A stretch of 64,000 nt of DNA. Origin: a virus. The stretch lies in the IMG/VR virus record IMGVR_UViG_3300021420_000016, positions 90,049-154,048 of that record, one strand, 5' to 3'. The translations under genes were made by a program, and so were the position numbers. Under the pieces are notes generated by a model that ran no database searches, was not told the origin of the DNA, and saw only the letters and a list, made by a program, of their open reading frames with translations. This document shows, one piece after another, positions 44,053 through 62,577 of the stretch; the first letter of the stretch is position 1, and each line of letters opens with the position of its first letter.

Positions 44053-44067
44053 ATATCACGATGATAT
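44053..44067. promoter_or_regulatory. Regulon dyad, site A
   Basis: ATATCA-CGA-TGATAT, a perfect 6-bp inverted repeat with 3-bp spacer, 31 bp before the 40-44 kb operon. Confidence 0.75.
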
Positions 44068-44071
44068 CAGA

Positions 44072-44152
44072 TCATCGTGCGGGAATGAAGCACTTCACAT
44101 CGCAATGGCGGCCGACCTCGTACGGCGGGCCGTAGTCGGTGTCCGTGCTCAT
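44072..44152 (-). CDS. 26-residue peptide
   Basis: ATG coupled to the previous stop (ATGA); reads MSTDTDYGPPYEVGRHCDVK then CFIPAR. Ends just before the dyad of the next operon. Too short to classify. Confidence 0.42.
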   Translation of the reverse strand: MSTDTDYGPPYEVGRHCDVKCFIPAR

Positions 44153-44400
44153 AGCGGCCTCCCGTCCTTGGCCGGGTCGTAGCGGTCCATGCCGGCGAAG
44201 GTCAAGCCGCCATTCTCGGGCTGCATGGCGTAGCCGATCCCGTACCACTCCTCGTAAGTCGCCCATTCTTCGTCGGTCGAGCCGGGCCGTTCGGCGACGC
44301 GGTACGCCGCAGCGCAGGCGTTCTCGACCTCGGCGAGCGTCAGCCCGGTCGCTTCGGCCCGGATGCGCTTGTGCAGTTCCACGATCTCGGTCTCAGTCAT
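44149..44400 (-). CDS. Small unknown protein
   Basis: 83 residues, helical N-terminus (ETEIVELHKRIRAEATGLTL) and a Trp/Tyr-rich centre (EEWATYEEWYGIGYAM). Coupled to the following peptide by ATGA. No recognised domain. Confidence 0.7.
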   Translation of the reverse strand: MTETEIVELHKRIRAEATGLTLAEVENACAAAYRVAERPGSTDEEWATYEEWYGIGYAMQPENGGLTFAGMDRYDPAKDGRPL

Positions 44401-44402
44401 GG

Positions 44403-44714
44403 CTAACCTGCTCTCCGGATTGCTTCGTCGGTGCGGTAGGGAATCACCAGATACCAGCCGCCCACCCGGGCGAGGGTGCGGTGATCCACACTCGTGCCGT
44501 GCACGTCGACCGGGATGGTCACCGGCTCGTGGCCGCGGTCCAGGCCATCCGCTATGGCCTTCGCCCCGGCCGGGCTGAAACTCCACTCGGCCGACAGGAA
44601 CTCTGCCAGAGCTTCCGGCGTGGGGAACGCGCGCACCCGTGCCCTGCACTCACAGGTCCCATCGGGGCCTATAGCGGGTGTGTCGTGGTTGCACCACTGG
44701 CCGGCGGTTCCCAT
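44403..44714 (-). CDS. Unknown protein with Cys-His start
   Basis: 103 residues. WCNHDTPAIGPDGTCECRA at the N-terminus may bind zinc; PTPEALAEFLSAEW and GWYLVIPYRTDE follow. Two bp from the upstream gene. No recognised domain. Confidence 0.7.
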   Translation of the reverse strand: MGTAGQWCNHDTPAIGPDGTCECRARVRAFPTPEALAEFLSAEWSFSPAGAKAIADGLDRGHEPVTIPVDVHGTSVDHRTLARVGGWYLVIPYRTDEAIRRAG

Positions 44715-44716
44715 GG

Positions 44717-44977
44717 CTAGTGGGCCTCGTAGACGGCGTGGCCCTGCACGGTGATCTGCATGGGTACCCGGCGCTCACCGTCCGGGTCCACCATGGGCGT
44801 GTCGCCGTTCACGTCGTCCAGGTCCACCGAGACGCGCATGACACCGTCCTCGCGGTACAGCCACACCGTCACGCCGGCCACCTGAATGCAGGGCAGCGCA
44901 CTGTCGCGGTCATCCACGGCTGCTGAGTCGCAGCCCCAGGAGATCGCGTCCGAATTGACTTCCCTGTCGGTCCTCAT
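44717..44977 (-). CDS. Small acidic unknown protein
   Basis: 86 residues; extended ribosome site GGCGAAGGGACACC before the ATG. Beta-rich (GVTVWLYREDGVMRVSVDLD, MQITVQGHAVYE). Heads a four-gene operon. No recognised domain. Confidence 0.75.
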   Translation of the reverse strand: MRTDREVNSDAISWGCDSAAVDDRDSALPCIQVAGVTVWLYREDGVMRVSVDLDDVNGDTPMVDPDGERRVPMQITVQGHAVYEAH

Positions 44978-45019
44978 TGCGGTGTCCCTTCGCCTTTGCG
45001 TGTTGGCTTCGCCTGGTCG

Positions 45020-45451
45020 TTAACGAGTCGTAGTTGGCACGCGGGGGTCTTCATGGCAATCGGCGCAGACGCGCTGGTCGGTGTCTGCGGTCAGTACGGC
45101 TACTAGCCGCACATTGCGCGCTTGGCAAAACTCACACTGTCCCACCGGAATCTCGTCGCGACCCTGCCCGGCAAGGGCTTCGGCGATGGCCTCGCGGATG
45201 CTCTCATCGAGAGCCATTACGTCCACATGGCCAGTGGCCCGGTACTTAAGCGCTGCCGCGTCGCTGAGTGGCAGTACCGCCGCGAGGGCAGCGGCGGCGC
45301 GTGCGGCACCACAGGGCCACTGGGGAACCGAGTCGGCGCAGCGGGAAACGCATATGCCAGGCTCGGGAAAGTTCGCGCTTACGTGTTGGCGGTGGGCCTG
45401 CTGGATCTTGCCCAGGATCACGCCCAGTTCGAGCATGTGTAGTACGGTCAC
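45020..45451 (-). CDS. Unknown protein with C-terminal CxxC pairs
   Basis: 143 residues from GTG with GGAAGGA upstream. CEFCQARNVRLVAVL and VCADCHE give a zinc-ribbon-like end; the N-terminal half is helical. No family recognised. Confidence 0.7.
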   Translation of the reverse strand: MTVLHMLELGVILGKIQQAHRQHVSANFPEPGICVSRCADSVPQWPCGAARAAAALAAVLPLSDAAALKYRATGHVDVMALDESIREAIAEALAGQGRDEIPVGQCEFCQARNVRLVAVLTADTDQRVCADCHEDPRVPTTTR

Positions 45452-45454
45452 GGC

Positions 45455-45694
45455 TCAAGTCCTTCCGTCGTTGCCGGTGGTGGTGGCGGGTGCCCGGTGC
45501 TCAATCGCGGCCCGGACGTGAGCGCCAACGTTGTAGTGGTTCGCCCAGTCGATCAGGGTTGCCCATTCGCCCTCGCTGAGCGGGCGCGGGTTCGGGCTGC
45601 CGCAGTAGATGCAGACCGGGGCGCGTATCCCAATGGTTCTCGGGACGATCCGCCAGTGCCGCATACGGCCAGGGCAGCGATCTTGGCCGCTCAT
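45455..45694 (-). CDS. Small unknown protein with CIYC motif
   Basis: 79 residues from an ATG coupled to the previous gene (ATGA); a GTG ten codons upstream is possible. PVCIYCGSPNPRPLSEGEWA then a helix. Possible half zinc finger. Confidence 0.65.
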   Translation of the reverse strand: MSGQDRCPGRMRHWRIVPRTIGIRAPVCIYCGSPNPRPLSEGEWATLIDWANHYNVGAHVRAAIEHRAPATTTGNDGRT

Positions 45695-61279: not shown

Positions 61280-61501
61280 CTAGACCAGCTTTACCAAGAG
61301 GTCACCGCGGGAACCTTTGGCCTTCAATGTGGTGATGTAGGAACGCCTAAGCCAGTCGGTACTCACGCCGAACAGATCAAGGTCACCACCGGCCATAGTC
61401 TCAAGATGCGCCATGAAAGCATCCATGCCATGATCGGCAATGTACAACATCGCATCCGTGCGGCCGATGATCAGGTCATAGCGGAGTTGTTGGGTAAGCA
61501 T
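61280..61501 (-). CDS. Small unknown protein
   Basis: 73 residues; CAGGCGAAGGGACACGC upstream. QLRYDLIIGRTDAMLYIADH, then a helix and DWLRRSYITTLKAKGSRGDL. Alpha/beta. No recognised domain. Confidence 0.72.
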   Translation of the reverse strand: MLTQQLRYDLIIGRTDAMLYIADHGMDAFMAHLETMAGGDLDLFGVSTDWLRRSYITTLKAKGSRGDLLVKLV

Positions 61502-61670
61502 TGCGTGTCCCTTCGCCTGTGCGCGCGTCTCGCGCGTCTATCCCTATCCAGTCGCATGCGTAGCCTTCGCTGGCATCGTTGCCCGTGCACGCTACGGTGC
61601 GCTGCCCGTGCCCGTTCCGGCCGGCCTTACGGATGCGCCGGCCGCAGTCTGGGCATGACTGCCCGGCCAT
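61476..61670 (-). CDS. Possible zinc-ribbon protein
   Basis: 64 residues from ATG. SCPDCGRRIRKAGRNGHGQR, then VACTGNDASEGYACDWIGID. Its start lies in the arm of a strong hairpin and its end overlaps the next gene by 26 bp, so expression is uncertain. Confidence 0.45.
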   Translation of the reverse strand: MAGQSCPDCGRRIRKAGRNGHGQRTVACTGNDASEGYACDWIGIDARDARTGEGTRNAYPTTPL

Positions 61671-61693
61671 GCCCACGGGTATGGCCGGGCAGT
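61658..61693 (-). terminator. Perfect 13-bp hairpin
   Basis: ACTGCCCGGCCAT-10-ATGGCCGGGCAGT, just after the stop of the 61.7 kb gene in the minus direction. Confidence 0.65.
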
Positions 61694-61704
61694 GAACGGG
61701 TGAC

Positions 61705-62187
61705 CTAGGCACGCGCGTCCGTGCCAACGTCGGCTATGTAGCCTGCCAGCGTGGATGTCAGACGGTCCGGTCCCCAGAGACGTTCCGCGAGAGTCCAGCA
61801 CCCGTCACAGATCAGGCCATGTTCGCCGGTCTGCGCATGGCCGACACAATCGCGGTGCAGTTGGCTCTTGTCCGCCCCCGATTTGGGCGCGAACGCATGC
61901 CCGTGCCGACCGATAGGGTCACCCGGGTGATGTGCGGCACGGTTACACGTGGCGCACCGGTCGGCCGGTAGCAAAGTACTGAACGCCGGGCCGCGCGTGT
62001 CGTCACCGTTGGCGTAGTCGGCCATGATGCTGGCCACGGTGCGCTCCAGTCGGCCGGCCACGGTGCGAGCCGTAGGCATGGCGTGGACGTCCGCCTTCGT
62101 GCGGAGGTCGGCGATAGCGTCGCTCAGTTCATCCACGGTGCGCTCCAGTGCAGCGCGCAAGTTGTCGGTATAGGCACGGCGGTACAT
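61705..62187 (-). CDS. Unknown protein with zinc-like Cys/His
   Basis: 160 residues; TAGGCGAAGGGATCACC upstream. Helical start (RAALERTVDELSDAIADLRT), then CATCNRAAHHPGDPIGRHGH and LICDGCWTLAERLWG, a treble-clef-like Cys arrangement. No family recognised. Confidence 0.75.
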   Translation of the reverse strand: MYRRAYTDNLRAALERTVDELSDAIADLRTKADVHAMPTARTVAGRLERTVASIMADYANGDDTRGPAFSTLLPADRCATCNRAAHHPGDPIGRHGHAFAPKSGADKSQLHRDCVGHAQTGEHGLICDGCWTLAERLWGPDRLTSTLAGYIADVGTDARA

Positions 62188-62213
62188 AGGTGATCCCTTC
62201 GCCTAGGTTGCGT

Positions 62214-62279
62214 CCGTATGGACTAGGGGTGCCCCGTCCCGTGCTGGCACGGTTCACCCGTGGCCCATACGGGCTAGTC
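62214..62279 (-). repeat. Structured intergenic element 4
   Basis: CCGTATGG ... CCATACGG and, shifted, GACTAG ... CTAGTC. Lies after the 62.3 kb gene stop and before the 61.7 kb gene. Confidence 0.5.
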
Positions 62280-62513
62280 GGACGATTCGGAGTGGTCGTA
62301 AAACACGATGGGGCGGACGGGGTGACCGTTGCTGTAGAACCGCCCGGTCTCGGTCAGGCGGTAGCGGTACCCGCCGCAGTCCGGTATGGCAATGGGTCCG
62401 ATGACCTCGGTCACGATGCCGCGGTAGGCGGTACCCATGGTGACGCACTGACCGACGATCACGTCACCGATCTTGGCGTCCGGCGTCCTGGTGGTGCTCC
62501 GCAGAGTGCTCAT
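62274..62513 (-). CDS. Small unknown protein
   Basis: 79 residues from ATG (MSTLRS); an ATG six codons upstream falls inside an operator-like dyad and is less likely. KIGDVIVGQCVTMGTAYRGI and YRYRLTETGRFYSNGHPVRP, an SH3-like beta pattern. Divergent from the 62.6 kb gene. Confidence 0.7.
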   Translation of the reverse strand: MSTLRSTTRTPDAKIGDVIVGQCVTMGTAYRGIVTEVIGPIAIPDCGGYRYRLTETGRFYSNGHPVRPIVFYDHSESSD

Positions 62514-62514
62514 A

Positions 62515-62544
62515 CACACATGATAATGCATCTTATCGTGTGTG
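62515..62544. promoter_or_regulatory. Long dyad in the divergent region
   Basis: CACACATGATAA-6-TTATCGTGTGTG, 12-bp arms with one mismatch, just upstream of the minus-strand gene start. Likely operator. Confidence 0.62.
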
Positions 62545-62562
62545 CATAGGCAGTTAGCTCTG

Positions 62563-62577
62563 ATATCATGACGGTAT
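62563..62577 (+). promoter_or_regulatory. Regulon dyad, site G (degenerate), with -10-like TATCAT
   Basis: ATATCA-TGA-CGGTAT. It contains TATCAT six bases before the ATG, consistent with a -10 box of a leaderless transcript. Confidence 0.5.

Follow-up and report, generated by a model that had tools for sequence, protein, structure and literature searches.

The last 64 kb of the 154,048-bp IMG/VR virus record IMGVR_UViG_3300021420_000016, the whole stretch analysed here (the window; positions refer to it unless given as record positions), contain between 40 and 62.6 kb a leftward-transcribed array of small proteins, in which a 15-bp dyad recurs ahead of several genes. Why does one short palindrome stand before so many small units, and what would bind it? 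The dyads are probably operators within a family of eight promoters, at which one dimeric repressor would silence early operons; that the sites share one regulator is well supported by their sequence.

Six exact copies of ATATCRNNNYGATAT are located in the window, at 44053, 48841, 50308, 53553, 56983 and 58148, as listed in the initial annotation. None is expected (maximum 0 in 100 shuffles), and the other 90 kb of the record contain no exact copy. With up to two mismatches, the whole record has 12 places, compared to one for the reversed pattern. When all palindromes with 5-bp arms and spacers of 0–14 are ranked over the 154 kb, ATATC-5-GATAT comes first, with 6 seen and 0.008 expected. A degenerate seventh site at 62563, also claimed initially, differs from the pattern by one mismatch, and an eighth, degenerate as well, is found at record 16813 (L005:16813), before a minus-strand unit of small proteins. 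Matrices made by leaving out pairs of like sites always return the same eight places at the top (the six exact sites, 62563 and record 16813); the eighth, with 15.4–16.1, has the lowest score among them, and the next-best places reach at most 13.8. The window dyads, to which no strand is assigned, are:

44053–44067: dyad 1, ATATCACGATGATAT, heads the unit beginning with 43576–44022 (minus strand), 30 bp to the start codon
48841–48855: dyad 2, ATATCACGATGATAT, heads the unit 48361–48816 (minus), 47131–48354 (minus) and on
50308–50322: dyad 3, ATATCGTGATGATAT, heads 50060–50287, 49696–50067, 49400–49699 and 48867–49403 (all minus)
53553–53567: dyad 4, ATATCGTGATGATAT, heads 52512–53522 (minus) and the ArdA-like gene 52130–52507 (minus)
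56983–56997: dyad 5, ATATCACGCCGATAT, heads gene 56785–56940 (minus), second arm upstream of −10
58148–58162: dyad 6, ATATCACGCCGATAT, heads gene 57671–58114 (minus), second arm upstream of −10
62563–62577: dyad 7, degenerate, ATATCATGACGGTAT, overlaps the start codon of 62576–62791 (plus)

Genes were called with a simple finder of our own (called coding fraction 80%), and none of the eight sites lies inside a called gene; each degenerate site overlaps the start codon of a gene that the finder missed (62576–62791 and record 16599–16814). The sites had been described as preceding first genes in either orientation. The placement holds, with 20–42 bp between the edge of the dyad and the start codon at the six exact sites, but the orientation is one-sided: six of the seven window sites stand before minus-strand genes, 62563 being the sole plus-strand case. 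Likewise, the dyads do stand before units, but they mark only 6 of the 19 minus-strand array starts that have 30 bp or more of free sequence ahead of them. The final 20 kb of the record contain seven of the eight sites, within a span of 18.5 kb. The eighth heads a unit 117 kb away from the array, the first gene of which (record 16599–16814, minus strand) encodes a 71-residue protein and has leaderless promoter geometry.

An extended −10 element has TG one base ahead of the −10. Read in the sense of transcription, each of the eight sites includes TGATATCAT, a candidate element of this kind, followed in every case by AT six bases on. The window copies are:

44061–44069, minus strand: extended −10 TGATATCAT, promoter 1, AT six bases downstream
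48849–48857, minus: extended −10 TGATATCAT, promoter 2, among three consensus promoter matches in 43500–62800
50316–50324, minus: extended −10 TGATATCAT, promoter 3, TAGACG 17 bp upstream
53561–53569, minus: extended −10 TGATATCAT, promoter 4
56980–56988, minus: extended −10 TGATATCAT, promoter 5
58145–58153, minus: extended −10 TGATATCAT, promoter 6
62561–62569, plus: extended −10 TGATATCAT, dyad 7, six bases to ATG, predicted leaderless mRNA

In M. smegmatis, TANNNT is the common −10 (excerpted text of PMC6448022). The AT coincides with the start codon at the two leaderless dyad genes (62576 and record 16814) and is the predicted transcription start site at the other six. The leaderless spacing, six bases after TATCAT, is also present at two genes that have no dyad, 60650 and 62513. 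In the leaders of 44053 and 48841, an ATG at the predicted +1 opens, by eye, leaderless frames of 4 and 9 codons; the second of these ends in a TGA overlapping the ATG of the next gene. Around the leaderless TATCAT of gene 62274–62513 (minus), an inverted repeat with ACACAYGATAA arms is located in the window at 62507–62552, back-to-back with dyad 7 and unrelated to it. The gene 60650–61003 (plus) has the same leaderless TATCAT geometry and is accompanied by another palindrome, GGATWCCGGAATCC, at five places with up to two mismatches (window 60596–60932), two before and three inside the gene; this set resembles an array of a self-regulating or centromere-like kind.

Relative to the −10, the dyad occurs in two registers. 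At 44053, 48841, 50308 and 53553 the second arm is downstream of the −10; so is the degenerate arm of 62563 and of record 16813. The arm is upstream at 56983 and 58148, where the AT lies outside it. Might the repeat nevertheless be a strong core promoter only, its symmetry having no regulatory meaning? The sequence TGATATCA, which occurs at eight places in the 154 kb (0.30 expected), never inside a called gene, is palindromic by itself and invariant across the sites, for which selection on the promoter would suffice. However, an exact partner arm is present at the dyad distance in six of the eight, on either side of the −10. Given TGATATCA, the probability of this in at least six of eight is about 1e-18, or about 1e-8 for at least three of eight, allowing for copied sites, both values being calculated post hoc with the sites already known. 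TATCAT has 17 strand matches (three palindromic sites are counted twice), of which 16 fall outside called genes, placing it at the top of 60 hexamers made up of those letters; its other intergenic copies, at 60638, 62520, L008:2257, L008:2291 and 25332, lack the partner arm. The two registers of the second arm suggest a role for the dyad beyond that of a promoter, and we regard the core-promoter explanation as improbable. The dyads were also considered as mRNA hairpins, a candidate that was dropped: five of the six dyad leaders have z-scores of −0.8 to 0.1 relative to shuffles, and one has −2.4.

Several observations weigh against a family of operators. The like sites 44053/48841, 50308/53553 and 56983/58148 could have arisen by copying of a single promoter, and the second arm is degenerate in two of the eight sites. 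Where the arm is downstream, the AT at +1 lies within it, so the two signals are not independent there. A general promoter scan of 43500–62800 gives three matches, all at TATCAT places and two of them dyad sites, which is no excess over the shuffle mean of 2.8. Finally, no relative carrying the array was found in the collections searched. For DNA near-matches to 40–64 kb, this covers phages and plasmids. The dyad together with the sequence found before start codons (described below) retrieved three viral and 23 genome stretches, judged by their context to be chance, and the latter sequence with ATG nine viral stretches, none with a second array-like copy before a start. Viral-contig scans with five proteins gave no relative with the array, one of them returning only a near-identical contig. 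Among 13 DnaB-related records, none has the dyad with up to one mismatch and one has the exact start-associated sequence; five of the 13, compared by protein, have few proteins in common with this record, and a palindrome scan of four revealed no comparable dyad.

The sequence before start codons, AGGCGAAGGG, precedes 20 array genes between 44032 and 62204 (minus strand), in 16 cases exactly and in four with one mismatch; one more one-mismatch copy, at 43783, is inside a gene and was excluded. At the six exact dyad sites, AGGCGAAGGG follows 9–19 bases past the −10, and then comes the ATG. The other 14 of the 20 genes have no dyad, and one dyad is 117 kb off, so the suggestion that the repeat switches the whole array goes too far. 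Upstream of these 14 genes there are often strong, variable hairpins (mean z −2.2, 5/14 below −3; for 60 control windows, mean z −0.3 and 1/60 below −3).

How would the sites work? The 15-bp dyad covers the −10 to about +2 at six sites (two degenerate), and the spacer together with the −10 at the other two. A dimer on any of the dyads would cover the −10, and no fixed activator position suits both registers, which argues for a repressor site. Of the repressor or activator first proposed, the shared regulator is thus retained and the activator is disfavoured by the position of the dyad over −10/+1. In the model, RNA polymerase would recognise the extended −10 TGATATCAT and start six bases on, at the AT; a symmetric dimer on the dyad would exclude it. 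In a resident phage the early small-protein operons, one with the ArdA-like protein, would be kept silent, and with the regulator unbound, for instance just after entry, all eight promoters would open together.

The record has a GC content of 68%. Scans for protein families revealed phage head proteins (an SU10-type capsid, an XkdF-type protease and a Mu F-like kind), holins, SSB, DnaB, a tyrosine integrase, a ParA-like protein, Lsr2, FtsK and DUF5753/XRE regulators. The GC content and the families found make a host among the actinobacteria likely. A 26-kb contig, G014, is 99.96% identical to the record over 19,169 bases and reaches about 7 kb past its left end without matching the record again there, so the phage genome would be at least 161 kb and the record is incomplete. 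When 53 proteins from the array part of the window were compared with Pfam (E ≤ 0.01), four matched: DUF7167, ArdA (PF07275, one array member), DUF3145 and, weakly, YdaS. The ArdA-like gene is the second of the 53553 unit:

52130–52507, minus strand: ArdA-like antirestriction protein, phrog_25535 (E = 1.2e-33) and phrog_2059, anti-restriction (E = 1.7e-5)

Relatives of this protein were found in 22 phage records. Among the 20 listed, Mycobacterium phages Phlei and prophi86-1 and Gordonia phage Abscondus carry the gene close to the right end; in Caulobacter phage BL47 it is at 18.6 kb, within the 30-kb terminal repeat, and in some phages it is away from the ends, for example in Erythrobacter phage XM05 (88.6 of 152 kb). 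The array protein 55095–55769 has relatives in 25 records; among the 20 listed, they are in Caulobacter terminal repeats and near record ends in Ruegeria/Roseobacter, Erythrobacter L02, Mesorhizobium and Bacillus phages (DSS3P8 is recorded as circular, its ends being those of the record). In Rhodobacter phages they are at 73–77 of 94 kb, that is, not at the ends. Switching at entry into a host, as first put forward, is therefore plausible: the ArdA-like gene in the 53553 unit and the relatives at ends or in terminal repeats, in many but not all of the phages found, speak for it indirectly.

In the array stretches of two of these relatives a different sequence is reiterated. The 12-mer GTTAAGGTTAAC is present, counting both strands, in 34 copies in 18 kb of vB_EliS-L02 and 22 copies in 24 kb of BL47; the array stretches of DSS3P8 and Cp1R7A-A1 contain none, so two of the four arrays examined carry it. 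To us GTTAAGGTTAAC looks like a CtrA box, and control by CtrA has been published for alphaproteobacterial phages of the BL47/L02 kind (PMC9437464, in the part available). Together, these suggest that placing arrays of small genes under a single reiterated site may be a recurrent design, the site differing from phage to phage. In vB_EliS-L02, the array at 132000–150063 is punctuated by repeated modules, GTTAAGGTTAAC (34), TTGACGAATCAC (20 copies) and, ahead of start codons, AAGGAGACAGAC; TTGACGAATCAC contains GAATC, a possible CcrM site.

By analogy, a host regulator might bind the dyads, through which the phage would sense the cell's condition, in the way that CtrA serves alphaproteobacterial phages. 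The BL47 and vB_EliS-L02 arrays, which share gene families with this one and carry a CtrA-box-like sequence, favour it, and so does the distribution of the dyad in bacteria: the pattern is found in 136 of 296 actinobacterial genomes and the reversed control, by our own row count, in 23 (another palindrome of equal composition is in 20 of 100 genomes). At 19 of 40 fetched loci a PadR-family gene lies within 66 bp of the dyad, all 19 matching PF03551, compared to 0 of 20 loci of the control palindrome. These 40 loci are non-random, chosen by hand among the matches listed, the first 20 with a leaning towards GC-rich-looking and recurring sequences and the second 20 from the others; PadR genes are at 10/20 and 9/20, respectively. 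They are at 19 of the 29 loci above 55% GC and none of the 11 below, while just 7 of the 20 control loci exceed 55%. From gene neighbourhood, the dyad core in actinobacterial chromosomes is tied to PadR operators. Four loci (L077, L085, L087 and L094) have a divergent PadR/DUF5318 pair with a long palindrome between the genes, which is likely a conserved PadR operator.

However, the PadR-linked sites extend to a longer palindrome, about CGATATATCGNNNCGATATATCG, and in a matrix of such sites the seven window sites score 2.6–20.0 bits, versus at least 28.6 for PadR-linked sites left out of it. The sampled genomes have at most five sites each, which gives no sign of a large host regulon. With PF03551 (E ≤ 10), neither of the two phage records, both incomplete, gave a match and 14 of 14 control genomes did; an alignment search for PadR in the two records, run without a control, was also negative. 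This absence would suit a regulator encoded by the host. PadR as the regulator of the phage sites, at first thought likely, was demoted: the full operator is absent from them, and the search pattern had forced the shared core. On balance, a host regulator at the phage dyads appears rather unlikely.

A different regulator class is suggested by the chromosomal locus L078, where two overlapping copies of ATATCATGACGATAT are located 68–79 bp before an XRE (HTH_3) gene. ATATCATGACGATAT differs by one base from 50308, 53553 and 62563, by two from 44053, 48841, 56983 and 58148, and by four from record 16813. Proteins of this kind are also present in the phage:

12674–12895, minus strand: small XRE-like protein, candidate regulator, PF01381 at E = 0.041, below the cut-off
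13092–13676, plus strand: XRE-like protein, candidate regulator, PF01381 at E = 1.8e-4, just below the cut-off, and phrog_5823, transcriptional regulator, at E = 1.7e-5
window 26365–27237 and L008:18654–19442: DUF5753 proteins

An XRE helix-turn-helix protein, encoded by phage or host, is the most likely regulator class and fits better than PadR. The proposed helix-turn-helix protein 53832–54104 has only weak matches, to YdaS and phrog_597 (both E = 0.002), and its structure model is uninformative, with a predicted local distance difference test value (pLDDT) of 49.6.

The 71-residue protein at the eighth site offers another phage-encoded candidate. By eye, it looks ribbon-helix-helix-like; no search or model supported that. 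It could regulate the sites and repress its own promoter, being the only first gene among the eight units whose product looks DNA-binding (by eye) and having leaderless geometry. Against it, the site at its own promoter has the lowest score among the eight, and the protein has no match in Pfam at E ≤ 1, none better than E = 0.33 among PDB sequences and none at E ≤ 0.1 in phages and plasmids. A single-sequence model (pLDDT 80.5, predicted template modelling score 0.41) has four helices and no strand, and no match was obtained with Foldseek. This candidate is, in our estimation, quite unlikely.

As the phage has a ParA-like protein, the dyads could also be partition (parS) or replication sites overlapping promoters, as in plasmid pSM19035; sites of ribbon-helix-helix ParB proteins, WATCACW, do overlap promoters (PMC9499535, text in part). 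A parS of pSM19035 has 7–10 consecutive heptads per site, versus a single dyad per site here, and the parA leader has an imperfect palindrome of its own and no dyad, which makes this very improbable. That palindrome, with 18-nt arms at L008:2332–2371 (record 62332–62371), is a possible partition or operator site.

A family of operators thus gives, from sequence alone, a candidate regulon and a testable promoter grammar, TGATATCAT-N6-AT overlapped by a dyad, for a phage array without relatives in the collections searched. It would bring an ArdA-like protein and small uncharacterised proteins under common control, which helps to choose genes possibly acting on the host together. A bolder reading is that a temperate actinophage, its genome at least 161 kb long, wires its early, antirestriction-bearing array to a host regulator via that regulator's operator in the extended −10; we hold this to be unlikely. 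If true, it would parallel CtrA-driven lytic deferment in actinobacteria, with another site but on an array sharing at least two gene families.

Known systems resemble the dyad family in part. In phage phiC31, symmetric repressor sites (conserved inverted repeats) are reiterated at early promoters. The PadR operators, as deduced from gene neighbourhood, have the same ATATC-N5-GATAT core at a short distance before a gene, but their conserved outer T/A and inner G/C are mostly absent from the phage sites, which do not form the full palindrome, and an adjacent or same-element PadR gene was not found in the phage records, which are incomplete. In cluster A mycobacteriophages, according to the part of PMC9283540 seen here, one repressor sequence is likewise repeated in an actinophage, also at promoters; its stoperators are asymmetric 13-mers, more than 20 in number, spread genome-wide and also proposed to stop elongation. 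The sites here are 15 bp long, symmetric and in two registers relative to the −10, and there are eight in the incomplete record, all at predicted promoters. The start-associated sequences (SAS) and extended start-associated sequences (ESAS) of cluster K mycobacteriophages are placed just before start codons, as is AGGCGAAGGG, some with upstream inverted repeats (PMC3203893 and PMC12699233, both in part). Their consensus, GGGATAGGAGCCC, has two window matches with up to two mismatches, versus 2.6 expected, and the inverted repeat there is a shared one of 17 bp, where the hairpins here are variable.

The clusters of CtrA sites differ in site sequence and host group, and the dyad here overlaps −10/+1; the CtrA consensus is TTAA-N7-TTAA, of which the window has no copy. 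The arrangement is nevertheless the same: in the CtrA clusters, the sites of one regulator are focused in one segment of a large phage, intergenic and at promoters (PMC9437464, in the part cited). The dyads have this regional skew and intergenic placement, with 7/8 in the last 20 kb and 8/8 outside called genes, and relatives of two of the array proteins occur in Caulobacter phages with such clusters. The alphaproteobacterial comparison thus suggests that such arrays may repeatedly come under one reiterated site, the sequence of which is specific to the phage.

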